This document shows positions 4,992 through 62,983 of a stretch of 64,000 nucleotides of DNA, piece by piece. The position numbers and the translations under genes are program-made. The stretch's first letter is position 1, and each line of letters begins with the position of its first letter. Under the pieces are notes generated by a model that did not search any database, had not been told where the DNA came from, and saw only the letters and a program-made list of their open reading frames with translations. Source of the DNA: Holophagae bacterium (lineage in GTDB: Bacteria; Acidobacteriota; Holophagae; Acanthopleuribacterales; Acanthopleuribacteraceae); assembly GCA_029263455.1 (NCBI GenBank), contig JAJCXM010000008.1, positions 496,001-560,000 of the forward strand. The letters run 5' to 3'.

Positions 4992-5114
4992 CTCAAACAA
5001 ACGGGTAGAATCGTTCCGCGTAACAAAATGCGCTATGTTTCCCTTGTTGTGCAGACGTGGCTGACACATGTGCCGTTCCAGTGGCGCAATATCTTGTGGA
5101 AGATGGGAGGATCC

Positions 5115-6377: not shown

Positions 6378-6433
6378 TCAAACCTATGTCATCGATGGAA
6401 TCAGACATTTTTCTATTTGTTTGATCAAGCGAA

Positions 6434-7105: not shown

Positions 7106-7206
7106 GAAAGAACCTCCGCTAGGCGACGATTAATTAGAGCAGCGCAAGAAGAGTGCCTAAAGGCATGCCCATGTCTGTGGCGTGAAAGGGGAGTGCAAAC
7201 ATTACC

Positions 7207-43939: not shown

Positions 43940-44824
43940 ATGGCCGGGACGGCGCAATCAGATACAGGACGATTAAAGCGAGTCATGCTGCGACATGTTC
44001 GTGACGCGTTTCATTCACAGGCGGCCGTAGACGCTCAATGGGAGATGCTTAACTATACAAGTCGACCCGACTTTGCCGCAGCCTGCGAGGAATACGACTG
44101 GTTCGCAGGTCTGCTGATGGATCGTGGCGTAGAGATAGATTATTTGCCGGCTGACGACGCATTATCGCTAGATGCGCTCTACCCCCGTGATACGGCCATA
44201 GCGACTGATCAGGGAATCATCTCATGTAGCATGGGCAAAGAAGCGCGCATGGATGAACCGAACTCCACCAAGGGCGCCTGCGTCACCCTTGGGTTTTCAG
44301 TTTTTGGTGCCCTTTCTTTTCCAGCTAAACTAGAAGGCGGCGACGTCGCTTGGTTAGATTCACGGACTTTAGCGGTTGGCCACGGCTACCGGACCAACGA
44401 CACAGGAATCCGGCAACTTCGTACACATCTCGATGACAAGGTGGAATTGATCGAGGTGCCTTTGCCACATTTTCGTGGCCCAAATGATGTCTTCCATTTG
44501 ATGTCCATCTTCAGCCCGATCTCGCCGGATGTCGCCCTGGTTTATTCGCCCTTGATGCCCGTTCCGTTTCGAAACCTACTCATGGATCGTGGCTTTAAGC
44601 TAGTTGAGGTGCCAGAGTCAGAATTTGATACGCTAGGCTGCAATGTTTTGGCGGTAGGACCAAAAACCTGCATCGCCGTCGACGGCAATCCGATTACTCG
44701 TAAGCGATTGGAAAAAAACGGGATCGAGGTTTTAGTCTTTCCTGGCCATGAAATTTGCATAAAGGGTCAGGGCGGACCGACGTGTCTGACGAGGCCGTTG
44801 AATTGGGGCGACGTTCAACGCTGA
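43940..44824 (+). CDS. Dimethylargininase/amidinotransferase-family protein
   Basis: 294 residues; TAGGAG is six bases before the ATG. The family fold is the five-fold alpha/beta propeller of guanidine-modifying enzymes. The early acidic site is 'ALYPRDTAIATDQG'; 'PAKLEGGDVAWLD' is the conserved GGD segment; His186 (NDVFHLMS) and Cys282 (GGPTCLTRPL) match the catalytic His and Cys of dimethylarginine dimethylaminohydrolase (DDAH). The enzyme should hydrolyse a methylated arginine or similar guanidine to a ureido product; the exact substrate is unknown. The 3' end overlaps by ten bases with the convergent Rieske oxygenase gene. Arginine deiminase is less likely because the length and spacing fit DDAH. 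Confidence 0.82.
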   Translation: MAGTAQSDTGRLKRVMLRHVRDAFHSQAAVDAQWEMLNYTSRPDFAAACEEYDWFAGLLMDRGVEIDYLPADDALSLDALYPRDTAIATDQGIISCSMGKEARMDEPNSTKGACVTLGFSVFGALSFPAKLEGGDVAWLDSRTLAVGHGYRTNDTGIRQLRTHLDDKVELIEVPLPHFRGPNDVFHLMSIFSPISPDVALVYSPLMPVPFRNLLMDRGFKLVEVPESEFDTLGCNVLAVGPKTCIAVDGNPITRKRLEKNGIEVLVFPGHEICIKGQGGPTCLTRPLNWGDVQR

Positions 44825-45948
44825 TTTCGGTATGCGTCACGTAGCTTTTCTTGAAAGTCCCAAACAGCTTTTTCTTGGCTAGGGCAAAGTCGCCCCGGTG
44901 TGTAGTATCCGGATCCTAACCCTTTTTGCACCTTGCTGCAGATATCGATATCTTCCTGTTGAACTTGCTCGGAAAAATCCAAATCGGCCTTTTTTGACTC
45001 GGCAGTAGCCGTATTCGGATAGTAGTAATCAAATATGACACGACAGTGATTGGGTGCGGTCGGGACCACGAGATTCGTTTGTAAGCGGCCCGGAAGCAGA
45101 TTCAGCATCATATTCGGATATATGAACACATAGTGCGCGGTCCCATCGGCGTAGGTCTCACCACTTATGGGGCTTGATTGGTAGGAATACCATTTTTGAG
45201 TGTCAACCTTGTAATCAGCGTAGCTCAGTTCTTTATTAAGGCCTGGGTGCACATAAGGTAGGTGATAACCTTCCAAATAGTTCTCGACATACACTTTCCA
45301 ATTGCATGGGATCTCGTAAGTGACTTGTTGATGATGTTGGTAAGTTCCAAGATCAGAACCCAACCGTTCAGTAAGTCCTGCTATGCGTTCGTCAATGCTA
45401 ATCTCTGCTTCATCTAGAGAAGCAAAGATGAGCCCATTCCATGTCTTCACATGGATCTGCTTTAGTGCGACCTGCTGAGGGTCAAAAGTTAACGCCTTTT
45501 CCATTTCAGGGGCGTTCTTTAAGCGTCCGTCGAGGTGGTAAGTCCAGCCATGGTAGCGGCACTGAAGGGTCTTGATACGCGTGCAGGCCGTCACCAAGGG
45601 GCCGCCGCGGTGACGACAAACGTTGTGAAAACCGCGGATGTCATTCTGGTCGCGAACAAGGAAAGTGGGTGCATCGTGGAAGGTGAATGGCAACACCGTT
45701 CCCGGTTCCTGTAACTGATTCTGATGAGCCATTAACTGCCAGGATCGCGTCAGGAGTCCTCGCTCAAAATCGTGGCATTGAGGATCGCTGTAAAGTTGAG
45801 CTGGGAGTGCAATCGCTGTTTCGAGCCGCTGTGATTGCATGGCAGACACAGCCCAATCAGGGAATGCTGAAGGGAAATTCATGTCGAGAATTCTATCACG
45901 TGACTTAAGCCGGGTGGACGCTGAGTCATCGAGAAGTTCATGCGTCAT
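44815..45948 (-). CDS. Rieske non-haem iron oxygenase, alpha subunit (choline-monooxygenase-like)
   Basis: 377 residues. The Rieske [2Fe-2S] motif is Cys111-x-His113 (CRHRGG) and Cys130-x2-His133 (CRYHGW). The mononuclear iron site follows in 'NYLEGYHLPYVHPGL' with a late Asp in 'QEDIDICSKVQ'. The length and the motif 'CNWKVYVENYLEGYHLPYVHP' fit the branch that includes choline monooxygenase, glycine-betaine demethylase GbcA and stachydrine demethylase, which act on quaternary amines. No reductase is encoded alongside. No strong ribosome site is seen for 45948; the Met at 45882 (MNFPSAF) is an alternative start. Tail-to-tail with the DDAH-like gene. Confidence 0.88.
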   Translation of the reverse strand: MTHELLDDSASTRLKSRDRILDMNFPSAFPDWAVSAMQSQRLETAIALPAQLYSDPQCHDFERGLLTRSWQLMAHQNQLQEPGTVLPFTFHDAPTFLVRDQNDIRGFHNVCRHRGGPLVTACTRIKTLQCRYHGWTYHLDGRLKNAPEMEKALTFDPQQVALKQIHVKTWNGLIFASLDEAEISIDERIAGLTERLGSDLGTYQHHQQVTYEIPCNWKVYVENYLEGYHLPYVHPGLNKELSYADYKVDTQKWYSYQSSPISGETYADGTAHYVFIYPNMMLNLLPGRLQTNLVVPTAPNHCRVIFDYYYPNTATAESKKADLDFSEQVQQEDIDICSKVQKGLGSGYYTPGRLCPSQEKAVWDFQEKLRDAYRNQR

Positions 45949-46047: not shown

Positions 46048-48186
46048 ATGTGGTTCGTGATGATGATGTTCTGGCTGAATGATGGAGTCGCAGATCAGTT
46101 GTGGGACGCCGCACGTGCCGGCGATTTGGTGAAAGTGAAAGCTTTGATAACTGCTGGAACTGACGTCAATGTGAAGACAAAATATGGGGCCACCGCATTG
46201 ACCTATGCTTGCGATAAGGGGCACTTAGACTTGGTTCGCTATTTGGTCGAATCAGGCGCAGAGATTAATATCAAAGATACGTTTTACGAAGCGGCACCTA
46301 TTTCTTGGGCCCTATTTAATGAGCATGATGATGTCGTGGTTTACCTCGTCGAAGCGGGTTCAGAGGACGTGGCTCAGGTTTTCTCGTTCGGACTGCAACG
46401 AAACAATGTCGTGTTGGCCAAAGCGGCTATCGATTCTAAGCGATTGGACTTGTCATTGGTGGGCGCTGCCAAAGCTAAGCTCAACGAGGAATCACCTGCT
46501 GAATTAGTAGCCCTGCTTGAAGCTGTCGAACTACCTGCCGTTGAAGATCAGCATCAGGTCTCGCCAGAACGCTTGGCGGTGCTGTCGGGTACATTCCACC
46601 AGTTGGACCTAGGCATGACGGTGGAGTTGAAGGTTGAGAACGGACTATTGGCGGGCGTCATCTTACCTGATCGGACTTTCACCCTGATGGCCAAGAGCGA
46701 TTCGACTTTTGACGTGATCGAACAACCTGGACAAAGCATCGAGTTTAAGCAAAACGCTGAGGGCGCGATGGTCTTTGACTTTAAGGTCGGCGACAATGCT
46801 TATTCATTTAATCGAGGCCCCTTTCCTAACGAAGAGCCAGCCGAACAAGCTGTTATTGAGCCAGAGCCACAACCTGTGCGTTCGAACCCTCGTCCGTGGC
46901 CGATGTTTCGTGGCACAAATGCGGATGGCAATGCCGACGGTCAAGCCGTTCCGACCCGCTGGGATGTGGAAAAAGGCGAGAACATAGCCTGGCGGACAGC
47001 AGTGGCGGGTTTAGCCAATGCGAGTCCGGTTGTTTGGGGCGACAAGGTTTTCGTGCTTACGGCCATCAGTGGCTCTGGCGACCATTCATTTAAGCCTGGA
47101 TTGTATGGTGACGTCGATTCCGTCGAAGACGTGTCGAAACATTCGTTTCGAGTTATAGCCGTCAATTTGTTTGATGGTAAAGTTATTTGGGATAAGGAAG
47201 TTGTTAATGCCGCTCCGGCGGTTAAACGGCACCTGAAAGCGACCCACGCTAATTCGACACCGGCAACAGATGGTCAGCATTTGGTTGTCCTCTTTGGTTC
47301 CGTTGGCCTCTTGTCAAGTTATGACTTTGACGGCAACAAAGAATGGTCGGTGGACTTGGGTCCGCTTGACGCAGGTTGGTTTTACGACAAAACCTATCAA
47401 TGGGGTCATGCAAGTTCTCCGGTCATCTATCGCGACACGGTAGTGGTCCAAGCTGACATTCAAGGTCAATCATTTATCGCTGCTTACCATCTCAAGGATG
47501 GCTCTTTGGCTTGGAAGACAAATCGCGATGAGATCCCAACCTGGGGAACGCCGACCGTTGTGCGAGGGGCTATTGATGAAATCGTTACCAATGGTCCCCG
47601 GATCCGCAGTTATAAGGCAGATTCAGGTGAACTCTTGTGGGAAATGAGTCCCAATTCCGAGGTCACGGTCGCTACGCCAATTTACGCCAATAACCTCGTT
47701 TATGTGACCGGCGGATATCCGCCTGCACGTCCCGTTTATGCCTTTCGTCCAGGTGGCAAGGGTGATCTCAGCCAGGCGGATAACCAAACCCACCTAGCCT
47801 GGTCCAAGAGTAAAGGCGGCACCTATATGCCGACACCTATTGCTTATGGCAAATATCTCTTTACCGTGGCTAACGACGGTCGCGTAACCACCTATGATGC
47901 GGTGAGTGGCGAGCAACTTGGGCGCTACCGATTAGGTGCAGGTGTATCGCTATGTTCGTCGCCGATTGCGGCCGACGGGCGACTCTTCTTTGCCGCAGAC
48001 TCGGGAGAAGTGATTGTGGTAACAGCCTCTGAAAACATGAGGGAACTGGCACGCAATGATATGGGTGAGATTCTTATGGCCACGCCTGCGGCCTCAGATG
48101 GCGTCTTGTTGGTGCGCGGTTTGCAAAACTTGTATGCGATCCGTCAGGGTGAGAACGGTTTGAAAGCGCCTTCAAAGGACCCGTGA
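46048..48186 (+). CDS. Exported ankyrin-repeat/PQQ-like propeller fusion
   Basis: 712 residues. The N-terminus (MWFVMMMFWLNDGVA) is a short signal-like segment. Residues about 17-110 hold ankyrin repeats ('DQLWDAARAGDLVKVKALITAGTDVNVKTKYGATALTYACDKGHLDLVRYLVESGAEINIKD'). Residues about 180-255 look like DUF3471-type beta domain ('LSGTFHQLDLGMTVELKVENGLL'). From about 280 on comes a PQQ-like propeller ('RVIAVNLFDGKVIWDKE', 'IAAYHLKDGSLAWKT', 'RSYKADSGELLWEM', 'VTTYDAVSGEQLGRY'). All three are binding modules, so a scaffold or binding role is more likely than catalysis. It is followed by a clear terminator. Confidence 0.8.
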   Translation: MWFVMMMFWLNDGVADQLWDAARAGDLVKVKALITAGTDVNVKTKYGATALTYACDKGHLDLVRYLVESGAEINIKDTFYEAAPISWALFNEHDDVVVYLVEAGSEDVAQVFSFGLQRNNVVLAKAAIDSKRLDLSLVGAAKAKLNEESPAELVALLEAVELPAVEDQHQVSPERLAVLSGTFHQLDLGMTVELKVENGLLAGVILPDRTFTLMAKSDSTFDVIEQPGQSIEFKQNAEGAMVFDFKVGDNAYSFNRGPFPNEEPAEQAVIEPEPQPVRSNPRPWPMFRGTNADGNADGQAVPTRWDVEKGENIAWRTAVAGLANASPVVWGDKVFVLTAISGSGDHSFKPGLYGDVDSVEDVSKHSFRVIAVNLFDGKVIWDKEVVNAAPAVKRHLKATHANSTPATDGQHLVVLFGSVGLLSSYDFDGNKEWSVDLGPLDAGWFYDKTYQWGHASSPVIYRDTVVVQADIQGQSFIAAYHLKDGSLAWKTNRDEIPTWGTPTVVRGAIDEIVTNGPRIRSYKADSGELLWEMSPNSEVTVATPIYANNLVYVTGGYPPARPVYAFRPGGKGDLSQADNQTHLAWSKSKGGTYMPTPIAYGKYLFTVANDGRVTTYDAVSGEQLGRYRLGAGVSLCSSPIAADGRLFFAADSGEVIVVTASENMRELARNDMGEILMATPAASDGVLLVRGLQNLYAIRQGENGLKAPSKDP

Positions 48187-48325: not shown

Positions 48326-49783
48326 ATGACCACGAACCTAATGAACAACTGGATTGGTGGCCAACTGACACCTTCTAGCTCGCCTTCAACATTGTATGTC
48401 AACTGCCCGCTAGACGGTAGGATTTTGGCCCAAGTCCCCTTGTCAAATGCGGCCGATGTCGATTCAGCTGTGCGAGCTGCTGAGTTAGCCTTTACTGGCT
48501 GGTCAAAGTTACCGATCAAAGAGCGTGCGCAGATTTTCTTTGAGTACCGAAAACTGTTAATTGAACATCAGGACGAGCTTGCCCAGCTGGTTCATGAAGA
48601 GAATGGCAAGACCATCGATGAAGCCTTGGCTGAGGTCAAGAAGTCGATTGAAGTGACCGAGTTTGCCTGCGCGCTACCTCAACTTACAGCCGGCGAGATC
48701 ATGGAAGTGAGTCGTGGCGTTGAATGCCGTACCGAATTTTGTCCACTGGGTGTGGTGGCCTGCATTACGCCCTTCAATTTCCCCAATATGGTGCCTAATT
48801 GGACTATTCCCAATGCCCTGTGTCTAGGAAATACGATGGTCTTGAAGCCATCGGAACTGGTTCCGATGAGTGCGATGCGACTTGCGGAATTACTCAAACA
48901 AGCAGGGTTGCCTGACGGTGTATTTAACGTGGTCCATGGCGGCAAAGATGTGGTTGAAGGTCTTTGTGACCATCCCCAAATCCAAGCCATTTCCTTTGTT
49001 GGGTCGACCAAAGTTGCCAAGCTCGTTTATGTGCGAGCAAGCGCTCATTTGAAGCGTGCATTGGCGCTTGGCGGTGCCAAGAATCATTTGATTGTGTTAC
49101 CGGATGCACATTTGGAAATGACGGCCAACAATGTCACGGCATCCATGGCAGGTTGTGCGGGTCAACGATGCATGGCGGCTTCGGCCATGGTCGGCGTTGG
49201 CGACGTGGATCCTGTCGTAAATCGCCTCGTTGAAGAGGCGCGTAAGATTGTGCCCGGCATGAACCTGGGCGCGGTTATTTCGCAAGCAGCTAAAGAGCGT
49301 ATCGAGCGCTATATCGATGAAGCGGAAGCTGAAGGAGCCGTGGTCAAATTAGATGGTCGCGGCGTGAAGGTTCCTGGTTTCGAAAACGGCTATTATGTCG
49401 GTCCAACGGTCATTGACCACGTGAAACCCGAAATGAAAATTGCCCGTGAAGAGGTGTTTGGACCCGTATTGTCGATCATGCGAACAAAAACACTAGATGA
49501 AGCCATCGATATTGAAAACAAAAATCCATATGGCAATGCAGCTGCCGTATTTACGCAGTCGGGCGGTGCCGCAGATTATGTGAGAGAGCGCGCCAGTGCC
49601 GGTATGTTTGGCGTGAATATTGGCGTGCCCGTGCCTCGAGAGCCTTTCGCTTTTGGCGGTTGGAACGACTCTAAGTTTGGCGTAGGCGATATCACGGGTA
49701 AGAGTTCAATCGAGTTCTGGACCAAGGCTAAGAAGACGACGCGAAAATGGAACGCTGAGGCACGCAGCAACTGGATGAGTTGA
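48326..49783 (+). CDS. mmsA: CoA-acylating methylmalonate-semialdehyde dehydrogenase
   Basis: 485 residues; GGAAGGTG lies before the ATG. Aldehyde dehydrogenase superfamily, with Cys282 as the nucleophile in 'GCAGQRCMAAS' and the MmsA-type 'FNFPNMVPNWTIPNALCLGNTMVLKPSE' segment. It oxidises malonate semialdehyde or methylmalonate semialdehyde with NAD+ and CoA, releasing CO2 and giving acetyl-CoA or propionyl-CoA. Here it closes the pyrimidine pathway: uracil gives malonate semialdehyde and thymine gives methylmalonate semialdehyde after the aminotransferase step. It is the first gene of the cluster; the NCS1 transporter starts one base after its stop. Confidence 0.95.
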   Translation: MTTNLMNNWIGGQLTPSSSPSTLYVNCPLDGRILAQVPLSNAADVDSAVRAAELAFTGWSKLPIKERAQIFFEYRKLLIEHQDELAQLVHEENGKTIDEALAEVKKSIEVTEFACALPQLTAGEIMEVSRGVECRTEFCPLGVVACITPFNFPNMVPNWTIPNALCLGNTMVLKPSELVPMSAMRLAELLKQAGLPDGVFNVVHGGKDVVEGLCDHPQIQAISFVGSTKVAKLVYVRASAHLKRALALGGAKNHLIVLPDAHLEMTANNVTASMAGCAGQRCMAASAMVGVGDVDPVVNRLVEEARKIVPGMNLGAVISQAAKERIERYIDEAEAEGAVVKLDGRGVKVPGFENGYYVGPTVIDHVKPEMKIAREEVFGPVLSIMRTKTLDEAIDIENKNPYGNAAAVFTQSGGAADYVRERASAGMFGVNIGVPVPREPFAFGGWNDSKFGVGDITGKSSIEFWTKAKKTTRKWNAEARSNWMS

Positions 49784-49784
49784 G

Positions 49785-51503
49785 ATGAGCCAAAACGACA
49801 TCACGCAGTCGCCGCTTTACAGCGAAGATCTAGCACCTGTTCCAGCCGAGAAACGGACATGGAACACGTGGAGTATGGCGGCAATCTGGGTTGGAATGGC
49901 CGTCTGTATTCCGACCTACATTCTTGCCTCGTACATGATCAAGAGCGGGTTGGGCTGGATCGAATCACTGGTGATCATTTTCGTGGCCAATCTGGTGGTC
50001 GCCTTACCGATGGTGCTCAATGGTCATGCGGGTGTTAAGTATGGGATTCCGTTTCCAGTCATGGCCCGTGCAGCCTTTGGAACGGTGGGTGTGCACATCC
50101 CAGCCATCGTTCGCGGCGTTGTCGCATGTGGTTGGTTTGGCATCCAAACTTGGATCGGCGGGCTTGCCATTTATGCGATTGGGTGCGTGATCGTAGGCCA
50201 AACGATGGTCCCTGAACTAACGGTTGGCAAGTTTGCTGGCTTCGGCATCTTTTGGCTCATTAACATGTATTTTGTATGGAAAGGGACCGAGAGCATTAAA
50301 TGGCTTGAAAGCTACGCGGCGCCAATTCTATTGTTAATTGGTGTCTTTTTGATTGGTTGGGGCGCCTCGCAAGCCGGCGGAATTGGTCAAGTACTGAAAC
50401 AAGCCGAACAGATGCGAGGCCAAACAGCACACATCGAAACGAGCGCTAACGGCCCTGTCTTGGTGATTGAGCCTGTCGTCGATTTACAGGGACAGCCCAA
50501 AGCAGAAGCATTCAATTTGCAATACACTGATGGCCATAGCTCGGTGGACTTTCCGATCACATCAACGACGACAAGACTCAATCTGGCAGAACTTGACGAA
50601 GTTAGTCAGTTAGCTCCGGGCACCCCCTTGCAGGTTCAATTCACCAAAGGCAATTTCACATCGTCTAGCGTAACGGCGAACTGGAGTGAGGCCACTGAAT
50701 CGAAGGGCCCTGGATTTTGGGTCTACCTCTTATGGTTAAACGCCATGGTTGGCTTTTGGGCAACGATGGCAATCTCCATCTCTGACATTACACGCTATGT
50801 AAAGACACAGAAGGAACAGGTTCTTGGCCAACTTATCGGCTTACCAGGGACGATGGTCCTCTATTCGTTTGTGGGCGTGTTTGTCACCTGCGCCGCACTG
50901 GTTCTGTTTGATGACGTACTGGTTGCGGAAGATGCGCCTTGGGACCCCGTGACGCTATTAGGAAAGTTCCAACAACCCGTTGTCGTCATAGTGGCTCAGA
51001 TTTTCATGTTGATCGCCACCTTAAGTACCAATATTGCCGCCAATGTCATTGCGCCTGCTAATGCATTTTCGAACGCATTTCCAAAGCGTATAAGTTTCTT
51101 GGGCGGTGGGATAATTACCGGCGTTATGGGCATCCTTATCGCCCCTTGGTGGCTTCTAGACCGTATTAGCGGATTATTGATTTTTGTTAGTGGTTTCCTG
51201 GGACCTGTACTCGGTGTTCTCATTGCCGATTATTTTTTTGTACGACGCATGGACCTTGATGTGGACGGGCTTTTTGATCCAAATGGACCCTATCGATATA
51301 AGGCAGGCATGAATCCAATTGGCTTGACGGCTTTGCTGGCTGGTGTGCTTACGGCAATGACAGGACTGTGGGTTCCGTCCTTGAGTGGTCTTTACACTCT
51401 GTCTTGGTTTAGTGGGTTCGGGGTTGCTTGTGTCCTGTATGTCGTTGGCACAAAGTGGTTTGGTTCATCGAACTCGGTTTCTAGCGAACAAGGAGGCGAT
51501 TGA
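49785..51503 (+). CDS. NCS1-family nucleobase transporter with large inserted domain
   Basis: 572 residues, about 12 membrane segments. The N-terminal 'KRTWNTWSMAAIWVGMAVCIPTYILAS' and 'GIPFPVMARAAFGTVGVHIPAIVRGVVACGWFGIQTWIGG' match the nucleobase:cation symporter-1 family (uracil, cytosine, allantoin, hydantoin carriers). 'NAMVGFWATMAISISDITRYVKTQKEQ' is the usual sixth-to-seventh helix region. Typical family members are 430-500 residues; this one has about 100 extra residues (roughly 207-308), Gly/Thr/Ser-rich and beta-like, between membrane segments. It probably imports uracil, thymine or dihydropyrimidines. Overlaps the next gene by one base. Confidence 0.9.
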   Translation: MSQNDITQSPLYSEDLAPVPAEKRTWNTWSMAAIWVGMAVCIPTYILASYMIKSGLGWIESLVIIFVANLVVALPMVLNGHAGVKYGIPFPVMARAAFGTVGVHIPAIVRGVVACGWFGIQTWIGGLAIYAIGCVIVGQTMVPELTVGKFAGFGIFWLINMYFVWKGTESIKWLESYAAPILLLIGVFLIGWGASQAGGIGQVLKQAEQMRGQTAHIETSANGPVLVIEPVVDLQGQPKAEAFNLQYTDGHSSVDFPITSTTTRLNLAELDEVSQLAPGTPLQVQFTKGNFTSSSVTANWSEATESKGPGFWVYLLWLNAMVGFWATMAISISDITRYVKTQKEQVLGQLIGLPGTMVLYSFVGVFVTCAALVLFDDVLVAEDAPWDPVTLLGKFQQPVVVIVAQIFMLIATLSTNIAANVIAPANAFSNAFPKRISFLGGGIITGVMGILIAPWWLLDRISGLLIFVSGFLGPVLGVLIADYFFVRRMDLDVDGLFDPNGPYRYKAGMNPIGLTALLAGVLTAMTGLWVPSLSGLYTLSWFSGFGVACVLYVVGTKWFGSSNSVSSEQGGD

Positions 51504-52897
51504 TGTCACTGTTAATTAAGAACGGACGAATTATTACCGCGGTTGATGACTACATGGCGGACGTCTACATAGAAAAGGACAAAGTCACCTTGATCGGACG
51601 TTCAATGGAAATGGAAGCCGATCAGGTTATCGACGCTACAGGTAAATATGTGATTCCAGGTGGCATTGATCCTCATACCCATTTGGACATGCCTTTCGGT
51701 GGCACGGTTTCGGCCGATGATTTTGAAACCGGTACCCGGGCTGCGGCTTTTGGTGGAACCACGACGCTAATCGATTTCGCCATCCAAACCAAAGGACATT
51801 CGACGTTAGAAGCGCTGGACACGTGGCATGCAAAAGCCGACGGCAAGACGGCAATCGACTACGGATTTCATATGATTGTCACCGATATGGACGACGATAG
51901 GCTCCACGAGATGAGGGCCCTCGCTGATGCAGGTGTCACCTCCTACAAGATGTTCATGGCCTATCCTGGCGTTCTCTATGTGGACGACGGCACCATCTTT
52001 AGAGCCATGCGTAAAGCTGGCGAAGATGGCACGGTTGTCTGTATGCACGCTGAAAATGGGATTGTTATCGATGAAATCGTGAAAAGAGCCGTTGCCGAAG
52101 GAAAAACAGCCCCCAAATATCATGCTTTGACCCGTCCTACACGTATGGAAGCCGAAGGTGTGCACCGTGCAATTTCTATTGCTGAAGTGGCTGGTGTGCC
52201 GGTCTACATCGTGCATTTGTCTTCGTCCGATGCGCTAGAGCAAGTAACGCAAGCCAGAAACCGTGGCGTACATGCATTTGCTGAGACATGTCCTCAATAT
52301 TTGTTCCTGGATTATTCCTATTACGAGAAGGAAGGATTTGAAGGGGCTAAATATGTCATGACGCCTGCTTTACGTGATAAATGGAATCAGGACAAATTGT
52401 GGCGTGGACTCCAGTTTGGGGATTTATGTTCGGTGGCAACCGACCATTGCCCATTCTGTTTTAAAGACCAAAAAGAACTTGGCCGCAATAACTTTGCCCA
52501 GATCCCCAATGGCGCACCCGGCGTGGAAAACCGAATGTCATTGGTATTCAATGGCGGTGTGGTCCAGGAACGTATTAGCGTGAACAAATTTGTGCAGCTG
52601 ACATCGACGGCTGCAGCCAAGATGTTTGGCCTCTTCCCTAAAAAAGGGACGATTGCAGTGGGTAGCGATGCGGACATCGTTGTTTTTGACCCCAATCGTA
52701 AAGAGACCATATCTGTCAATAACCCCTGCACACACCATATGAATGTGGACTACAACACCTACGAGGGCTTCGAGGTCACAGGATTTAGTGACACGGTTAT
52801 CTCGAGGGGTAAAGTTATCGTTAAGGACAATACTTATTTGGGACGTAAGGGCGATGGCGCTTTCTTGAAGCGCGGCCTTTACAACGGATTCCCTTAA
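51503..52897 (+). CDS. hydA: Dihydropyrimidinase (D-hydantoinase)
   Basis: 464 residues from ATG 51503, with AGGAGG six bases upstream; an in-frame TTG at 51500 is too close. A cyclic amidohydrolase of the urease superfamily: metal ligands His58 and His60 (GIDPHTHLDMPF), carbamylated Lys149 (SYKMFMAY), later His residues in 'VYIVHLSSSDALEQV' and the Asp in 'VATDHCPF'. It hydrolyses dihydrouracil or dihydrothymine to N-carbamoyl-beta-alanine or N-carbamoyl-beta-aminoisobutyrate. Its position after the transporter and before the ureidopropionase supports dihydropyrimidinase over a plain hydantoinase. Confidence 0.95.
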   Translation: MSLLIKNGRIITAVDDYMADVYIEKDKVTLIGRSMEMEADQVIDATGKYVIPGGIDPHTHLDMPFGGTVSADDFETGTRAAAFGGTTTLIDFAIQTKGHSTLEALDTWHAKADGKTAIDYGFHMIVTDMDDDRLHEMRALADAGVTSYKMFMAYPGVLYVDDGTIFRAMRKAGEDGTVVCMHAENGIVIDEIVKRAVAEGKTAPKYHALTRPTRMEAEGVHRAISIAEVAGVPVYIVHLSSSDALEQVTQARNRGVHAFAETCPQYLFLDYSYYEKEGFEGAKYVMTPALRDKWNQDKLWRGLQFGDLCSVATDHCPFCFKDQKELGRNNFAQIPNGAPGVENRMSLVFNGGVVQERISVNKFVQLTSTAAAKMFGLFPKKGTIAVGSDADIVVFDPNRKETISVNNPCTHHMNVDYNTYEGFEVTGFSDTVISRGKVIVKDNTYLGRKGDGAFLKRGLYNGFP

Positions 52898-52914
52898 ACA
52901 CAAGGAGCTTCATT

Positions 52915-53781
52915 ATGCCTCGCATTATTAAGTCAGGTCTTATTCAAACCGGTCTTGCCATGACGGAAGGCCAAGGAACGATTGACGAAATCAAGGCGTC
53001 GATGGTTGCTCGGCACATACCCTTTATTGAGAAGGCTGGTCAGCAAGGTGTGCAAATCCTCTGCCTTCAAGAGATTTTCAATACGCCCTATTTTTGCCCA
53101 GGCCAAGATTCGGCGTGGTACGCCTCAGCGGAATCGGTACCCGGACCGACAACAGATCTTATCGCTGAATACGCCAAGAAATACAAAATGGTTATTGTGG
53201 TACCGATTTATGAAAGAGAACAAGCCGGGGTCTTATACAACACGGCGGCCGTTATTGATGCGGATGGATCTTATCTCGGTAAGTACCGCAAAACCCATAT
53301 TCCGCACACATCAGGCTTCTGGGAGAAGTACTTCTTTAAACCGGGTAACTTAGGCTATCCCGTTTTTGAAACCAGCTATGCAAAGGTTGGCGTATATATT
53401 TGTTACGATCGGCACTTTCCAGAAGGCGCTCGCGCATTAGGTCTAAATGGCGCTGAAATTGTTTTTAATCCATCGGCGACTGTGGCTGGCCTTTCTCAGT
53501 ATTTGTGGAAACTAGAGCAACCGGCCCATGCGGCGGCAAACGGCTATTTTATGGGTTGTATTAATCGAGTAGGGACGGAAGCGCCTTGGAACGTGGGCCG
53601 ATTCTATGGTTCCTCATATTTTGTGGATCCCAGAGGCCAAATATTTGCCCAAGCATCTGAGGACAAGGATGAACTCTTGGTTGCCGATTTTGATCTCGAC
53701 CTAATTGATGAAGTGCGTTCAACGTGGCAGTTCTTCCGCGATAGACGACCTGACGCTTACAACGATTTGGTGGCACCATGA
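52915..53781 (+). CDS. Beta-ureidopropionase (N-carbamoyl-beta-alanine amidohydrolase)
   Basis: 288 residues; AAGGAG nine bases before the ATG. A nitrilase-fold amidase with catalytic triad Glu53 (CLQEIF), Lys126 (KYRKTHIPH) and Cys163 (ICYDRHFPEG). It releases ammonia and CO2 from N-carbamoyl-beta-alanine or N-carbamoyl-beta-aminoisobutyrate, giving beta-alanine or beta-aminoisobutyrate. 'THIPHTSGFWEKYFFKPGN' fits the ureidopropionase/N-carbamoylputrescine amidase branch, and the neighbouring genes decide for the former. The stop overlaps the start of the aminotransferase (ATGA). Confidence 0.93.
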   Translation: MPRIIKSGLIQTGLAMTEGQGTIDEIKASMVARHIPFIEKAGQQGVQILCLQEIFNTPYFCPGQDSAWYASAESVPGPTTDLIAEYAKKYKMVIVVPIYEREQAGVLYNTAAVIDADGSYLGKYRKTHIPHTSGFWEKYFFKPGNLGYPVFETSYAKVGVYICYDRHFPEGARALGLNGAEIVFNPSATVAGLSQYLWKLEQPAHAAANGYFMGCINRVGTEAPWNVGRFYGSSYFVDPRGQIFAQASEDKDELLVADFDLDLIDEVRSTWQFFRDRRPDAYNDLVAP

Positions 53782-55097
53782 GTGAACACAAAACACTGAC
53801 CTCAGAAGAAGTCCGCCAAAAACACAAGCAATACCTCTTTCCCTCAGTTAAGAATTACTACAAAGAGTCTGCGGTGATTACGGATGCTAAGGGTTGCCGA
53901 GTCAGAGACTTAGACGGCAACGAATATCTGGACTTTTTTGGTGGTATCCTTACCATTTCAGTAGGCCACGGTCAGGAAGATGTGAATGAAGCGGTCATTG
54001 CTCAGGTTAAGCGGCTCAATCACATCACCACGCTTTACCCGTCATTACCGATGGTGGAATTAGCGGAGCGCTTGTCTAACATCACACCAGGTCAGCTTCA
54101 AAAGTGTTTTTTTACGGCATCTGGGACAGAGGCCGATGAAACGGCCGTGATGATTGCGCAAACTTATACTGGCAACAGCGAAATTATTGCCTTGCGGCAC
54201 GGTTACTCTGGACGCTCGTTGCTCTGCCAAAGTCTCACGGCGCACAGTTCTTGGAGATCCGTTTCCACTCAGGTGGCTGCGGTGAAGCACGCATTATCGC
54301 CCTATTGCTATCGCTGTCCTTTAAAACTGAGCTATCCCTCGTGTGGCGTTGCCTGTGCTCAGGACATTGAAGAGTTAATTGTGACAACAACAACCGGGCA
54401 GGTGGCAGGTATGCTTGCCGAACCGATCCAAGGTGTGGGTGGATTTATTACGCCACCTAAAGAGTATTTTCAGATTGCGGCAGAAATCGTGCGTAAGTAT
54501 GGCGGGATCTTTATTTCCGATGAAGTTCAAACCGGGTTTGGACGGACAGGGACCATGTGGGGCATCGAACAATACGGTGTTGAGCCCGACGTTATGACGA
54601 TGGCGAAAGGGATCGCTAACGGTTATCCGTTAGGGGCGGTCGTTGCCACATCCGCAGTGGCTGATTCACTGACAAAAAATACATTATCGACCTTTGGTGG
54701 CAATCCAATTAGTTCAGCGGCTGCTTGTGCAACCTTGGACGTGATTGAACGCGACGAGTTGGTCAAGAACGCAGGCGAGGTGGGCCAGCATTTCCGCAAC
54801 GGGTTGGAAGCCATACAAAAGAAATACCCCAAGTTAATCGGAGACGTACGCGGCATGGGCCTCATGCAAGGGCTCGAGTTGGTGGTAGACGAATCCATCA
54901 AAGATAGAACGCCGAACGTGCAGGCTGCGGTTGATTTGATGGAAGCGACACGTGATCGAGGTTTACTGATTGGTCGCGGCGGTTTGTACTCGAATGTTCT
55001 GCGACTCGCGCCCGCACTTAACATCACGCGCAGTGAAATCGATGAAGGCCTGGCCCTACTCGACGAATCCTTTACTGCAATAACACAAAGGGGTTAA
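53778..55097 (+). CDS. Class III aminotransferase (beta-alanine/alanine-glyoxylate type)
   Basis: 439 residues with ATG overlapping the previous stop. PLP enzyme of the AGXT2/GabT group: 'FTASGTEADETAVMIAQ' binds the phosphate, 'FISDEVQTGFGRTG' contains the Asp that pairs with the pyridine nitrogen, and Lys277 (TMAKGIANGYPLGAV) forms the Schiff base. In this cluster it should convert beta-alanine or beta-aminoisobutyrate to the corresponding semialdehyde, with pyruvate, glyoxylate or 2-oxoglutarate as acceptor; which one cannot be read from the sequence. A cysteine-rich insertion 'YCYRCPLKLSYPSCGVAC' (about residues 177-194) could bind metal or form disulphides. Confidence 0.92.
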   Translation: MSEHKTLTSEEVRQKHKQYLFPSVKNYYKESAVITDAKGCRVRDLDGNEYLDFFGGILTISVGHGQEDVNEAVIAQVKRLNHITTLYPSLPMVELAERLSNITPGQLQKCFFTASGTEADETAVMIAQTYTGNSEIIALRHGYSGRSLLCQSLTAHSSWRSVSTQVAAVKHALSPYCYRCPLKLSYPSCGVACAQDIEELIVTTTTGQVAGMLAEPIQGVGGFITPPKEYFQIAAEIVRKYGGIFISDEVQTGFGRTGTMWGIEQYGVEPDVMTMAKGIANGYPLGAVVATSAVADSLTKNTLSTFGGNPISSAAACATLDVIERDELVKNAGEVGQHFRNGLEAIQKKYPKLIGDVRGMGLMQGLELVVDESIKDRTPNVQAAVDLMEATRDRGLLIGRGGLYSNVLRLAPALNITRSEIDEGLALLDESFTAITQRG

Positions 55098-55100
55098 TAC

Positions 55101-56402
55101 ATGTCTTGGTCCCCTCTTCCCACTGATCGTCTCGAACAAGGATTTAAAGATAAACGTCCTTTATATACTCGCGCAGAGGCCTTGGTTGAAGCCAATCGTT
55201 GCCTCTATTGCCATGACGCACCATGCATTAAGGCGTGTGCAACCGGCATTGATATTCCTCATTTCATCAAGCAGATCGCGCACGATAATTTGCCGGGCGC
55301 GGCCAAGACCATATTGAGTGTCAATATGTTAGGTGCCTCTTGTGCGCAGGTGTGTCCGGTCGAAGTGATGTGCGTGGGTGATTGTGTCTTTAACGACCTG
55401 AATGAAACGCCCATAAATATCGGAAGACTACAGCGATATGCCACCACAGAGGGGCTCAAGTACGAAAATACTAGTGGGCGACGTTTGTTTACCGCCAAAC
55501 CTGCAAACGGGAAAAAAGTGGCGCTTATTGGCGCCGGTCCAGCCTCGCTTGCTTGCGCTGCATATCTTGCGCTAGCGGGCGTCAAAGCTAGCATTTTCGA
55601 ACGCGACCCGTTGCCAGGCGGCTTAAACACAACCGGTGTGGCACCTTACAAACTCAAAGCTGACGAGTCGTTGGACGAGGTGCAGTGGATTCTTGATCAC
55701 GGGGTCGAGCTTCACGGTGGGAAGGCATTAGGTCGCGACTTCAATATGTCTGACTTGCTGGATGAATATGACGCCGTATTTTTGGGCCTTGGATTGGGTG
55801 CCGACCATCATCTGGGTATTCCTGGCGAGCAAACACCAGGCGTTTGGGGTGCAACCGCTTTGATCAGGGCAATCAAGAATGAAGCAGGTTTCAAGGTTCC
55901 AGCCGAAATCAAGCAGGTGGCCATTGTGGGGGCCGGCAATACGGCGATTGACATCGCGCATGAACTCGCCGAGATAACCTCCGCCCAAATCTCGATGGTC
56001 TATCGCCGAAGTGAATCGGATATGAGCGGGTATGCGCATGAAATGGCTCATGCACGTCAGGTTGATGTTCGTTTGGTCGAAAATGCGCGCCCACTTGCGA
56101 TCGAAGTGTCTGCCGGAAAAGTTACTGGTTTACGAGTGGCTCTTAGGAGTGGTGAGGAAGTTCTGCCATGTCAATGGGTGGTACAGGCTATAGGCCAGGA
56201 GCGAATTGCGACACAGCTAGATTTGAGTGTGGATTTGGATGAGAAGGGACGTGTCAAAGTCAATGAGTTTGGATTGACGTCACACGATCGTATTTACGCA
56301 GGCGGCGATTGCATCAATGGCGGCAAAGAAGTGGTCAACGCGGCGGCGGACGGCCGAGAGTCGGCCTTTGCTATGCTCAAATCATGGGGTCTTGAAGCCT
56401 AA
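55101..56402 (+). CDS. preT: NAD(P)H-dependent dihydropyrimidine dehydrogenase, subunit PreT
   Basis: 433 residues. N-terminal Fe-S-binding region 'CLYCHDAPCIKACATGIDIP' and 'CAQVCPVEVMCVGDC', then an FAD-binding site 'IGAGPASLACAAYLA', an NAD(P)H-binding site 'VGAGNTAIDIAHELAE', and a C-terminal FAD motif 'DRIYAGGDCINGGKEVVNAAADGR'. This is the glutamate-synthase-small-subunit-like electron-input half of bacterial dihydropyrimidine dehydrogenase. It passes electrons from NAD(P)H to PreA. It starts three bases after the aminotransferase stop and precedes preA by 16 bp. Confidence 0.96.
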   Translation: MSWSPLPTDRLEQGFKDKRPLYTRAEALVEANRCLYCHDAPCIKACATGIDIPHFIKQIAHDNLPGAAKTILSVNMLGASCAQVCPVEVMCVGDCVFNDLNETPINIGRLQRYATTEGLKYENTSGRRLFTAKPANGKKVALIGAGPASLACAAYLALAGVKASIFERDPLPGGLNTTGVAPYKLKADESLDEVQWILDHGVELHGGKALGRDFNMSDLLDEYDAVFLGLGLGADHHLGIPGEQTPGVWGATALIRAIKNEAGFKVPAEIKQVAIVGAGNTAIDIAHELAEITSAQISMVYRRSESDMSGYAHEMAHARQVDVRLVENARPLAIEVSAGKVTGLRVALRSGEEVLPCQWVVQAIGQERIATQLDLSVDLDEKGRVKVNEFGLTSHDRIYAGGDCINGGKEVVNAAADGRESAFAMLKSWGLEA

Positions 56403-56418
56403 AGGATAGGGAGTTTAT

Positions 56419-57756
56419 ATGGCTGACTTAAGCGTTAATATGTGTGGGATCCAGAGTCCAAATCCTTTTTGGTTAGCCTCTGCTCCACCTGCGAATACAG
56501 GGGAACAAATTATGCGCGCCTTCGATGCTGGCTGGGGCGGCGCCGTGTGGAAAACACTTGGGACCCCCATCGTAAACGTATCTTCTCGTTTTGGTTCTAT
56601 TGATTATGACGGTGCAAAAGTTGTGGGTTTCAATAACATCGAACTGATCACCGATCGGCCATTGGATGTCAATTTTAAGGAGATCGCTGAAGTTAAGAAA
56701 CGCTACCCAAAGCATGCTGTGATTGTTTCCTTGATGGTAGAGACAAAAGAGGAATGGCGCGACATTATTAAGCGATCCGAGGACGCAGGCGCTGATGGTC
56801 TCGAGCTTAATTTCGGTTGTCCCCATGGCATGTGCGAACGTGGAATGGGGAGTTCTGTAGGCCAAGAGCCCGCTGTTCTAGAACGCATCACTTCTTGGGT
56901 GATGGAATACGCAAACATACCTGTTTTGGTGAAATTGACCCCAAATATTGGTGATATTTTGGATCCGGGCCGTGCTGCTGTGCGCGGCGGCGCATCAGGG
57001 CTTTCGCTGATAAATACGATTAAGTCGGTCATGGGCGTTGATCTGGATCGCATGGTACCGCTACCACGTGTGGGAGATGCTTCGACAAATGGCGGATATT
57101 GTGGTCCGGCTGTCAAACCGATCGCCATGCATATGGTGGCGGCTCTGGCGCGTGACAAAGAGGTGGGCATTCCCATATCAGGCATCGGAGGCATTTCAAA
57201 CTGGCGTGATGCGGCAGAGTTTATCGCTTTGGGGTCCACAACGGTGCAAGTCTGTACAGCAGTGATGCATCATGGATATCGAATTGTGGAAGATATGATT
57301 GACGGACTGAGCCAGTTCCTTGATGAAAAAGGGATGACTTCTGTCGAGCAATTGATTGGCCATGCAATTCCCAACTACAAGGAGTGGGGACAGCTTGATC
57401 TAAATTATCGGGTGATTGCGGAAATCAATCCCGAAACATGTATCGGTTGCCAATTATGCTATGTGGCATGTCAGGACGGTGCTCATCAATGCATCCATTT
57501 GGCATCGACTGACTGCGATGCTTATCACGGCGTACATGATCATGCTCAGAGCGTACGTACAAAATGGCCTTCGGTTAGACATGATGAATTACATGATGGC
57601 AAACCACGGGTTCCTTGGGTCGATATCGATGAATGTGTAGGGTGTAATCTCTGTGAGTTGGTGTGTCCCGTTCCGGGTTGTATCACCATGAAAGAGATCG
57701 CGAATCCTGCTGGTCCTGAAAGTTGGAACGACCGTGTCGCCAAAGGACTGGCTTAA
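56419..57756 (+). CDS. preA: NAD-dependent dihydropyrimidine dehydrogenase, subunit PreA
   Basis: 445 residues; GGGAG six bases before the ATG. The first 320 residues are a dihydroorotate-dehydrogenase-like FMN barrel ('NPFWLASAPPANTGEQIMRAFDAGWGGAVWKT', 'LELNFGCPHGMCERGMGSSVGQEP', 'PVLVKLTPNIGDI'). The C-terminus carries two ferredoxin [4Fe-4S] motifs, 'CIGCQLCYVACQDGAHQC' and 'CVGCNLCELVCPVPGC'. With PreT it reduces uracil or thymine to the dihydro form. The position matching the catalytic cysteine of mammalian DPD (LACGQ) reads SSVGQ here; I believe bacterial PreA proteins often differ there. Last gene of the cluster. Confidence 0.96.
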   Translation: MADLSVNMCGIQSPNPFWLASAPPANTGEQIMRAFDAGWGGAVWKTLGTPIVNVSSRFGSIDYDGAKVVGFNNIELITDRPLDVNFKEIAEVKKRYPKHAVIVSLMVETKEEWRDIIKRSEDAGADGLELNFGCPHGMCERGMGSSVGQEPAVLERITSWVMEYANIPVLVKLTPNIGDILDPGRAAVRGGASGLSLINTIKSVMGVDLDRMVPLPRVGDASTNGGYCGPAVKPIAMHMVAALARDKEVGIPISGIGGISNWRDAAEFIALGSTTVQVCTAVMHHGYRIVEDMIDGLSQFLDEKGMTSVEQLIGHAIPNYKEWGQLDLNYRVIAEINPETCIGCQLCYVACQDGAHQCIHLASTDCDAYHGVHDHAQSVRTKWPSVRHDELHDGKPRVPWVDIDECVGCNLCELVCPVPGCITMKEIANPAGPESWNDRVAKGLA

Positions 57757-59617: not shown

Positions 59618-62600
59618 CTACGGGAATAGGTTGCCCTCCACAGAGCACTCTCGACATGGGTCGAATCCTGGCGTTAACCTGCTGTGCATGATTTCCATAG
59701 TCGAACCGTTCCAAGTCGCCGTGACGACAACCGGGTCACTTATAGAAACGAATGAGTCGGTGTAAAGGATGTTGACCGCGGTGGTGTTAATCGTCTGGCC
59801 GTCACGTCCTGCGCGCAAGTTAAAGCGATAGTCGTTAATAAACCCGCCGTTTAGATCTGTGTCATTAAGATAGGTGCAGCGACATCCACCTGGTTCTAGC
59901 TGATTCACTTCATCAATGAATTCTTCTCCAGGTTTTAGGATATGTATGATTTCTGGTGTGTCGTTCTGGAATCTGAGAATTAAGGGCCTGAACTTTACAT
60001 CGATGTAGACATTTCTTAAGTTGGTGTAGGGATTCAAGTAGGTCGCATTTGAAATGCTGGGGACTATCAACTGGTCGTTTTCCTGAAATCTCCGGATGTG
60101 AGATACCATCGCGAAACTCTCTGTAGTTACTCTGTACTTCAGTTTTTCACCGGAAAGTACGTAGTTGCGATTGACCTCAAAAAGGTCCATCAGGGCGTCG
60201 CCTTCAATATTGAGCAATTGGAGAATCGCGACATGAGAGTCCAATGGCTCTGTGCCGACGAATTTAATCAGATGATGGTTAATTGATAGGTCTGGGTATA
60301 GGAATTCATTGAGAATACGGGCGTGATGGAGTTCCGTTGCCTCAGTCAACTGTTCTGGATGGAATGCAACCGTCTCCTTGCTATCCAACAATTCACGTGC
60401 GGTTAAGTCATAGATGTCGCCACGCATATTGCTGAGAGCGTAGTCTAACCACCAGTCGCCTTCCTCTTCTGAATCGGGGACTTGATCAATGAAAGCGTCG
60501 AGATGGTTTCGGCGTAAAGAAATGTCGGTATAGATCGTAACTAAACTTTCGTTGGGATCTTCGAATAAATGATCCATCGCGTATTTGAAGAGACTGGCCA
60601 TGCCTTGGCCATGAGGACCTGCGTTGCCTTCGCCCAGACTGCCCGTTTCGGCTCCGAAGTTGGGCGCTTGGGCGTGTAAGACCAACGCATCGCTACGATG
60701 ATTTTCTGGATTCTCTGAATATAGACCCTCAGCCCAATTAGCCGTAGCTTGGTTGAACCAGTGGTGGTCAGGTGCTTGCGAGCCGCGCACACGGGAGATT
60801 CTGTAATCGTAATACGATTGGACAAGGTGGAAATATTCGTGGAATGCTGCGTTACCTGCAGGAATAAAGTCATCCAGTTTTGTGCGATTCATTTCAATAC
60901 AGTCATACTGATACCCGAACTGGCTTGATGCGAACGAGCCGCCTCTTTCGTGATCCATCAACGTGAGACTAACGTCAATAGGGTAGCGACTGCGAGCCGC
61001 GTATGTGAACCCCAAATCCAGGAAACGATCATAGGCTTCTTCGAAGGATTGTTCCAAGTTAGACAAGGCTTGCTCACTGACTGTTCCCGGTGGATAAAGG
61101 AATCGAAAATGTCCGGCTGACGTTGTGTGAATGGACTGGTCTCGGCCGCTAATGACAACGATGTTGTTTATATTCGGTGTTGTTTGACCCTGTCCATTTG
61201 AGACAGAAGCGAATATTGATGTGCGTACTTTCCCGCCGCCGTAAACACCATTCAATGGCAAAAGGTGTGGCTCTACACGACCGCTGCTAGCGACAAAGGC
61301 TGGTTGTTGGACAAAAACAATCGGTTGCTGACTGGGTGCATCTCCGTCAATCGCAATCGATAGCGATTTGGAGTACTCCAGTGGAAAGCCTTCCACTGTA
61401 AAAGTATCGGTCAAGTTTTGCTTTCTAGGTCCCACCCTTCTCCAAACACGCATCGTTTGATTCGCTGAAAGCGCGTTTCTTGGAATGGTGAGTTCGAATC
61501 CGGAGGTTGACAAAGTCCCGCCATCCGGCCCAATGATTTGCGTCGTTTCAAGCATGGAACCTGGCGGCACAATGGGATCGATGGTCGTGCCATTGCCGAT
61601 TGCTGGTTCCGCTCCCTCATTAAAAACGAAAGCTACGCCAGCTAAAGGTGCGCTTGCTTGGGCAATCATATAAGCGTTGGCGGAGTCACCTATGAGGGTG
61701 TTTGCCACCGCAGCGAATGGACGCATTGGAGAAACAGACTCCAGCGTATGTGTGCCCAATAATGAACCGGTCGCGTCATAGAAAAAGAGCTCTACTTCAA
61801 CGGCGTGTTGACTGGTATTCACAATAACGGGAGCAGAGGTGAGGCCGTTCCTTGTTGGTAGGTAACGCAAAAGGACAGTCGATCCTAAATCGGTTGTCGA
61901 AGTGCGATCGGCCATCATTGGGATCGCACTACCCTGTGCCGGCGAGCGTCCTGACTCGGTGTCAAGATTGTTGGTTACCCACGCGCCTCTCATGGCCCGG
62001 TGGTTACCTTCGACGAGCACGCTGAAGCCAGGCCCATCGCCAAGTGTGCGAAACAATGTAGACGCAAATTCTTCCATGAATCCGAAAGGGGGGATGCTAC
62101 GTTCAACAATGGCACGTTCACCATTGGCTCTAAATGCAGTCATCCTGACCAGCAAGAGACTGTCAGAAACGTTGTTTACAACAAGGATCGACTCGAACTG
62201 AGCGTTATTGGAAATCCACGGCATGAGCAAATCTTTATAGGGAACATGGGTATCCAAACCCACGGCGCTGCCAATGGCTGGCTCTGCTTGTTGATTGAAA
62301 ACAAACGCTGAACCCACCAAGGGTTCGTTGGACTCCGCTGTCATCATCACATTTTCGGCGTTTTCAAGTAGATTGTTTGCGACGGCGGCGAAGGGGCGGA
62401 AGGGAAGCGTTTGCGTCAGCGTCTTACTGGTAATTTCTACACCGGCATGATTGTAAAACCTCAAGAGAATGTCGGCTGCTTGGTTACCGATGTTTACGAT
62501 CACCGGTGCAGATGTCAAACCTTCGGTTGTTGGTAGATATGAAAACAATAATTTCCTGCCGCTATACCTTTTGTTTCGAGTCATATCGTCAGGTTTAAGC

Positions 62601-62983
62601 TTGATGGCCGTCCCTTGTGACGGTGACCGCCCACTGGCAGCTTCCAAATTGTTGGTTACCCATCCACCCGTGAGCGTGGAGCTAAGCGACTTGGCTACGA
62701 TGCAAAAGCCAGAACCGTCACCCAAGTCTGGGAACATCTCGCCAGCCTCTTCTTCAAAGAGTGCAAAAGCTGGTACTTGTCGCACTACCTTACTTGAGGT
62801 GTGTGGCAGCGGAGATCCAGTTGCTCGAAAGGCTTGAAACTCGACCTCGGCTGCTTCAACGCCAAAATTATTAATGGTGACAATCGACTCGAATTGCGTG
62901 TTTTTAGACACCCAGGGAAATACAAGCGTTGTCTCTTGAATCCAAATACAGGGCGCTAACAACGCCAACAGGGCTGTGCACAA
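59618..62983 (-). CDS. Large secreted protein: two N-terminal modules plus HEYFH metallopeptidase-like domain
   Basis: 1121 residues. TTG 62983 is preferred: GGAGG lies eight bases upstream and the signal peptide MCTALLALLAPCIW follows directly. Residues about 17-255 and 256-493 are two copies of one module ('FPWVSKNTQFESIV' / 'MPWISNNAQFESIL', 'GLTSAPVIVN' in both, 'PFAAVANNLL' / 'PFAAVANTLI', 'AFVFNQQAEPAIGS' / 'AFVFNEGAEPAIGN'). A third region leads to a zinc-peptidase-like site, His715-Glu716-x2-His719 (HEYFHLVQ), with Glu752 in 'NQATANWAEGLY' as possible third ligand, a gluzincin-like layout. The 3' end is two bases from the convergent GGDEF gene. Secreted protease likely; substrate unknown. 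Confidence 0.75.
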   Translation of the reverse strand: MCTALLALLAPCIWIQETTLVFPWVSKNTQFESIVTINNFGVEAAEVEFQAFRATGSPLPHTSSKVVRQVPAFALFEEEAGEMFPDLGDGSGFCIVAKSLSSTLTGGWVTNNLEAASGRSPSQGTAIKLKPDDMTRNKRYSGRKLLFSYLPTTEGLTSAPVIVNIGNQAADILLRFYNHAGVEITSKTLTQTLPFRPFAAVANNLLENAENVMMTAESNEPLVGSAFVFNQQAEPAIGSAVGLDTHVPYKDLLMPWISNNAQFESILVVNNVSDSLLLVRMTAFRANGERAIVERSIPPFGFMEEFASTLFRTLGDGPGFSVLVEGNHRAMRGAWVTNNLDTESGRSPAQGSAIPMMADRTSTTDLGSTVLLRYLPTRNGLTSAPVIVNTSQHAVEVELFFYDATGSLLGTHTLESVSPMRPFAAVANTLIGDSANAYMIAQASAPLAGVAFVFNEGAEPAIGNGTTIDPIVPPGSMLETTQIIGPDGGTLSTSGFELTIPRNALSANQTMRVWRRVGPRKQNLTDTFTVEGFPLEYSKSLSIAIDGDAPSQQPIVFVQQPAFVASSGRVEPHLLPLNGVYGGGKVRTSIFASVSNGQGQTTPNINNIVVISGRDQSIHTTSAGHFRFLYPPGTVSEQALSNLEQSFEEAYDRFLDLGFTYAARSRYPIDVSLTLMDHERGGSFASSQFGYQYDCIEMNRTKLDDFIPAGNAAFHEYFHLVQSYYDYRISRVRGSQAPDHHWFNQATANWAEGLYSENPENHRSDALVLHAQAPNFGAETGSLGEGNAGPHGQGMASLFKYAMDHLFEDPNESLVTIYTDISLRRNHLDAFIDQVPDSEEEGDWWLDYALSNMRGDIYDLTARELLDSKETVAFHPEQLTEATELHHARILNEFLYPDLSINHHLIKFVGTEPLDSHVAILQLLNIEGDALMDLFEVNRNYVLSGEKLKYRVTTESFAMVSHIRRFQENDQLIVPSISNATYLNPYTNLRNVYIDVKFRPLILRFQNDTPEIIHILKPGEEFIDEVNQLEPGGCRCTYLNDTDLNGGFINDYRFNLRAGRDGQTINTTAVNILYTDSFVSISDPVVVTATWNGSTMEIMHSRLTPGFDPCRECSVEGNLFP

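Follow-up and report, generated by a model that had tools for sequence, protein, structure and literature searches.

What does an extra segment of about a hundred residues do in a loop that nucleobase transporters of the NCS1 family normally keep short? The question is raised by one gene of the window analysed here, by which we mean the whole stretch of 64,000 nucleotides. A first-pass annotation, made from the sequence letters, had placed such an insert at roughly residues 207-308 (residue 207 being nucleotide 50403) of the encoded protein, in the loop before a membrane helix, and had suggested a small beta-sandwich that could be a lid, a binding domain or a docking site. The transporter and those parts of it that enter the argument are as follows.

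49785-51503, forward strand: NCS1 (PF02133) nucleobase transporter, 572 aa, LeuT-fold by homology, from PF02133 and Mhp1 matches
50382-50414, forward strand: linker helix after TM5, residues ~200-210, GQVLKQAEQM, from the insert-only model and conserved in the carrier alignment
50424-50693, forward strand: fibronectin type III (FnIII)/Ig-like beta-sandwich inserted in EL3, predicted to be extracytoplasmic, residues ~214-303, from AF2, structural matches and a weak profile match
50721-50792, forward strand: TM6, residues ~313-336, directly 3' of the insert, with W325 equivalent to Mhp1 W220, from the Mhp1 alignment
50895-50948, forward strand: start of EL4, residues 371-388, ALVLFDDVLVAEDAPWDP, 6 residues longer than in insertless NCS1 proteins, from a length comparison

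The 572-aa protein matches PF02133 at 310 bits (cutoff 23.5; E 2.7e-92) and Mhp1 chains at E 1e-39, both in two stretches, and TIGR00800 at 306 bits, below the curated 353, with the match split by the insert. All three alignments break at residues ~204-214 and resume at ~303-318. The insert does precede the TM6 helix, as annotated. Mhp1 (2JLN/4D1A) and the cytosine permease CodB (7QOA) belong to the same family, PF02133. The Mhp1 substrate- and Na2-site residues W117, Q121, W220, N318, S312 and T313 are identical in the window transporter, where they align with W117, Q121, W325, N420, S414 and T415, the last two being the intact Na2-site Ser/Thr. Mhp1 differs in its short TM5-TM6 loop, in having no beta domain and in carrying Q42 where the window transporter has C41.

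In an alignment of about 100 homologues, the stretch from A197 to W312, which covers the TM5-TM6 loop (EL3), measures 116 aa in the window protein and 104-137 aa in the other intact carriers of the insert, as against 20-33 aa in 72 insertless homologues. The two-piece pairwise match to Mhp1 gives ~113 residues against ~14, and the crystallised NCS1 proteins have a short TM5-TM6 loop too; a short loop is indeed the normal state of the family. The first-pass annotation had the frame and coordinates right, and the extra residues can be placed at ~212-306, about 95 in number, in one open frame with no stops. Because this single frame is free of stops and the segment is confidently predicted to fold on its own, the insert is neither a chance reading nor a frameshift, and an origin as a chance, frameshift or fusion artefact was ruled out as the homologous insert recurs in many genomes.

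The proposal of a small beta-sandwich was borne out by prediction. For the insert alone, with 34 inserts aligned, AF2 returns a linker helix (residues ~200-212) followed by a beta-sandwich (pLDDT 86.4, pTM 0.77), whereas a full-length prediction from a two-sequence alignment succeeds for the insert and is poor everywhere else. The linker helix has the family consensus GGFxxVLxQSxQL and is partly common to insertless relatives, for example GGIGAILEKSDEL in the alignment. Structural matches to the insert model, obtained with Foldseek and VIA-align, are mainly to FnIII or Ig-like modules. The scores are moderate, with a best Z of 7.6, many FnIII modules at Z 6-6.6 and Foldseek E values that go no lower than 8e-3; Z values of this size may come from a common arrangement, and Ig-like folds match the insert as well. 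At the level of sequence, the insert matches no known family in Pfam and NCBIfam and nothing significant in the PDB, and PF00041 (fn3) matches none of 28 inserts even at E 0.1. A profile of the insert does align in register, weakly, with one canonical bacterial fn3 domain (E 4.7e-4 in a single genome out of >1000), and Pfam fn3 hits the same stretch of that protein. We regard the predicted beta-sandwich as well supported and call its fold FnIII-like; it may follow the seven-strand FnIII arrangement. It would not count as a PF00041 member by sequence and, unlike fn3 modules of secreted multidomain proteins, it is inserted in the loop of a membrane transporter.

NCS1 proteins are oriented with the N terminus inside. 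The family has a 12-TM topology in which, judging from Mhp1 and CodB, the TM5-TM6 loop is extracytoplasmic (PMC9379551). Because TM5 runs outwards and TM6 inwards, the insert falls in the extracytoplasmic loop EL3. The insert is acidic, with 5 K/R against 11 D/E, and the predicted cytoplasmic loops hold most of the loop K/R. The extracytoplasmic location, predicted by homology, is well supported.

We looked for the insert beyond the window, and the idea that it is unique to the window species was ruled out by carriers elsewhere. About 47 non-redundant homologues carry it. Most belong to Bacteroidota; a few are from Spirochaetota, Planctomycetota, Myxococcota and Hydrogenedentota, and the window's genus accounts for the remainder. 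When 84,980 species genomes were scanned, 27 further insert loci emerged, again mostly Bacteroidota, with one from Spirochaetota, one from Planctomycetota, two labelled Deltaproteobacteria/Myxococcales and one from Hydrogenedentota. Within Acidobacteriota, 87 of 297 genomes have an NCS1 match, which is unbroken through the loop only in the window's genome and a congener. Searches with the insert profile covered genome sets whose phylum names are those of their centre loci, and found it in 8/395 genomes for Bacteroidota, 1/246 for Planctomycetota (centred on L045), 1/188 for Myxococcota (L054), 2/247 for Spirochaetota (L024) and 2/2 for the phylum of L048; in the order of L030 it was found in 20/298, a 21st match being the fn3 protein. 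The first-pass annotation had proposed searching the insert alone for homologues in other transporters: across more than 1,000 genomes, the matches lie in NCS1 frames, and the only one elsewhere is that true fn3 protein. Among the matches listed for plasmid records, the NCS1 matches are two-piece, that is, insertless. In one Myxococcales MAG (L054/L111), the carrier copy runs out of frame directly after the insert and before TM6, through either an assembly error or a pseudogene. A routine presence of the insert in this subgroup, together with a known function, had been named as what would overturn the reading of an unusual insert; the subgroup does carry it routinely, and no known function was found. 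Our partial coverage of the literature yielded no description of such a domain in an NCS1 protein, and the domain marks a whole, seemingly undescribed branch of the family.

In a quick tree from which the EL3 columns were excluded, 29 carriers form one group with SH-aLRT 100. Three divergent carriers (L045, L046 and L048) are placed outside this 29-row clade, in a second small clade, and because they fall elsewhere the carrier tree needs two changes. A tree with all carriers forced together is not rejected (p-AU 0.139), and the profile of the main-clade domain recognizes the divergent domains weakly, with E values of 2e-6 to 3e-4 for three of them and 0.04 for another in a nominal search space of 1000 sequences, which makes a single origin of the insert domain possible.

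Transporters of the main clade share, on average, 66% identity over the core and 24% over the insert. Protein change in close pairs is about 5-10 fold higher in the insert than in the core, and dN/dS in the four lowest-dS pairs is 0.13-0.32 for the insert and 0.01-0.05 for the core; these are approximate Nei-Gojobori values, and the L116/L117 pair is near saturation. That congeneric pair shows an extreme local contrast in rate, its cores being 91% identical and its inserts 32%. Positive selection on the insert was considered and none was seen on average, dN/dS being well under 1. The insert is under purifying selection, maintained yet loosely constrained, which is to be expected if its role is structural and not that of binding a ligand. 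The conserved positions in the insert alignment (GxxKA, W, SS) look structural, there is no clearly evident conserved surface patch or evident conserved polar pocket in that alignment, and none of 29 inserts counted has a cysteine in the domain.

A second loop changes along with the first. The stretch of EL4 before the WDP motif has 18 residues in 47/47 non-redundant carriers, many of them found by the insert profile alone, and 12-14 residues in 72/72 insertless proteins. The consensus reads FxxVLxxxDAPWDP in carriers and FGEAIWDP in insertless relatives, and APW[DE]P occurs in 43/47 carriers as against 0/72. The six additional residues are present in every readable carrier, including the three divergent ones and those that only the insert profile had detected. 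The two groups are not set apart in this way by any other loop, the lengths of EL2, EL5 and EL6 overlapping and those of IL1-IL4 being constant. Because the carriers share descent, the association of EL3 and EL4 counts as one or two events and not 47, and the two changes may go back to the same one or two ancestral events without being related to each other. In LeuT-fold carriers, EL4 serves as the outer-gate loop. In simulations of Mhp1 it acts as a control loop of the conformational change (PMC4505851). The strict co-occurrence with the EL4 extension lends indirect support to the lid that the first-pass annotation had suggested.

The transporter is encoded within an operon whose other members are listed here.

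48326-49783, forward strand: CoA-acylating (methyl)malonate-semialdehyde dehydrogenase (ALDH, MMSDH-type), TIGR01722 above cutoff
51500-52897, forward strand: dihydropyrimidinase, overlapping the NCS1 stop, TIGR02033 above cutoff
52915-53781, forward strand: carbon-nitrogen hydrolase, probable beta-ureidopropionase, PF00795, function by operon context
53778-55097, forward strand: class-III aminotransferase, probable beta-alanine aminotransferase, PF00202, function by operon context
55101-56402, forward strand: GltD-like NAD(P)-binding subunit of dihydropyrimidine dehydrogenase (PreT/PydX), PF14691 and PF07992
56419-57756, forward strand: dihydropyrimidine dehydrogenase subunit PreA/PydA, NF006183 above cutoff

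By its predicted enzymes, this is a complete reductive pyrimidine-degradation (pyd) cluster, and most Bacteroidota carriers are located in the same pathway. A comparable setting has been described for PA0443 of Pseudomonas aeruginosa, an NCS1 pyrimidine transporter near pyrimidine-catabolism genes that is associated with uptake of thymine, uracil and cytosine (PMC11633122). The likeness, drawn from the description, is that of an NCS1/NCS2-set member in a similar genomic setting; the parts of that description available to us mention no extra domain (PMC11633122).

In seven carrier loci, all from Bacteroidota (L038 at 2503-2937 and six others), a cytidine/dCMP-type deaminase of ~145 aa is added to the pyd cluster. 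It recalls the yeast-type cytosine deaminase, and the pathway would then extend to cytosine. Carrier operons otherwise consist of pyd enzymes only, with no conserved extra partner gene. The neighbourhood of the window operon holds several further genes. Directly 5' of it, at 46048-48186 on the forward strand, lies a 712-aa protein with the unusual pairing of N-terminal ankyrin repeats and a C-terminal PQQ/BamB-like beta-propeller; nearby are a Rieske/ring-hydroxylating oxygenase alpha-subunit (44815-45948, reverse strand) and an arginine-deiminase/DDAH-like protein (43940-44824, forward strand). The reverse-strand gene at 59618-62983 encodes a protein of 1121 aa that is predicted to be secreted and matches no Pfam family; its N-terminal segments are internally repeated, and it has a HEYFHLVQSYY peptidase-like motif.

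Insert-bearing and insertless transporters alternate in equivalent pyd operons, as between the window and L064 and between L030 and L097. The L064 operon (Neomarinimicrobiota, 4464-13431) has the same gene order as the window operon (48326-57756) and enzymes 59-81% identical to it, but its NCS1 protein is insertless and only 54% identical, so the two types of transporter are interchangeable in one pathway. The domain is therefore unlikely to define substrate or pathway. Alike enzymes beside a different transporter are a sign of operon transfer and transporter replacement.

The closest positional parallel is found in the KCC potassium-chloride cotransporters (SLC12A4-7), APC-superfamily carriers with a large extracellular domain made of EL3 (TM5-TM6) and EL4. 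In KCC4, EL3 and EL4 pack together as a domain that sits above the outer gate, and transport is reduced by mutations where this domain contacts the TM region (PMC7200160). The NCS1 carriers share the large TM5-TM6 insertion in a LeuT-fold carrier (116 aa against 20-33 aa); EL3 and EL4 are both modified in all 47 of them, and would pack together if the parallel holds. KCCs differ in being animal ion cotransporters whose domain is disulphide-bonded and glycosylated and is built of helices and a small sheet; the cysteine-free inserts lack the disulphide-bonding trait. The comparison is positional only, because the KCC EL3 is not FnIII-like, and we know of no homology between it and the NCS1 insert.

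On this analogy, the FnIII-like EL3 domain would be a structural element that caps a pyrimidine importer at its outer gate, a reading whose chances we consider evenly balanced. The window transporter would be a cation-coupled importer of pyrimidines of the uracil/thymine/cytosine type. Its loop between TM5 and TM6 would hold the beta-sandwich on a short linker helix, tethered directly to TM5 (the gating helix) and TM6a (the substrate helix), and the domain would pack on the elongated EL4 above the outer vestibule, as EL3 and EL4 do in KCCs. Such a cap could stabilize or tune the outer gate while contributing no substrate-binding residues. It is a gating role that we infer, and the wider picture of an NCS1 subfamily in which the EL3 domain and a co-acquired EL4 extension form a bacterial gating cap parallel to the animal KCC EL3/EL4 is one we put forward tentatively, as a plausible case that may well not hold.

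Other roles would account for parts of the same evidence. FnIII and Ig-like folds commonly mediate protein-protein contacts, and the rapid divergence of the insert would fit lineage-specific partners, so the domain might be a docking or oligomerization module. Its partner could lie in the periplasm, the cell wall or the outer membrane, or be another copy of the transporter, and the contact would localize the importer or guide substrate towards it. The carriers, though, come with no conserved additional gene, no surface patch is clearly conserved in the alignment and the EL4 change is left unexplained, and we hold docking to be possible but doubtful. The fast evolution of the insert and the alternation of both transporter types in equivalent operons are also what one would expect of a passenger, a long-standing insertion that the permissive loop tolerates, retained only because it has to fold and at most stabilizing. 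That the sampled main clade, which spans several phyla, shows no loss of this passenger, that it is under purifying selection with its linker helix and core motifs conserved, and that its association with the EL4 extension is perfect make this account unlikely.

The two remaining readings have very little in their favour. The binding domain of the first-pass annotation would capture nucleobases and hand them on to the transporter, much as a binding protein fused to it would, and its inferred position beside the outer vestibule would suit this. It is disfavoured by the very low conservation of the insert (~24% mean identity, though pathway and core are conserved), by the want of an evident polar pocket and by the structural look of the conserved positions; to our knowledge, small-molecule binding by FnIII-like folds is rare, and we consider capture highly improbable. 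The contrast between core and insert in L116/L117 would be at home in a diversifying surface, driven to change by phages, contact-dependent toxins or bacteriocins acting via inner-membrane proteins, but with the insert's mean dN/dS so far below 1 in the lowest-dS pairs, this explanation is barely credible.

The insert is a real, clade-defining and previously unnamed domain, FnIII-like by prediction, in EL3 of a predicted pyrimidine NCS1 importer, and it is absent from current family libraries. Work on LeuT-fold carriers usually deals with membrane bundles that bear no such domain, and the tuning of the outer gate by extracytoplasmic domains is otherwise studied in animal KCCs. A natural and widely inherited soluble TM5-TM6 domain, in a bacterial importer that is probably coupled to sodium, would make such tuning tractable in a model system, with insertless homologues in near-identical operons as matched controls.
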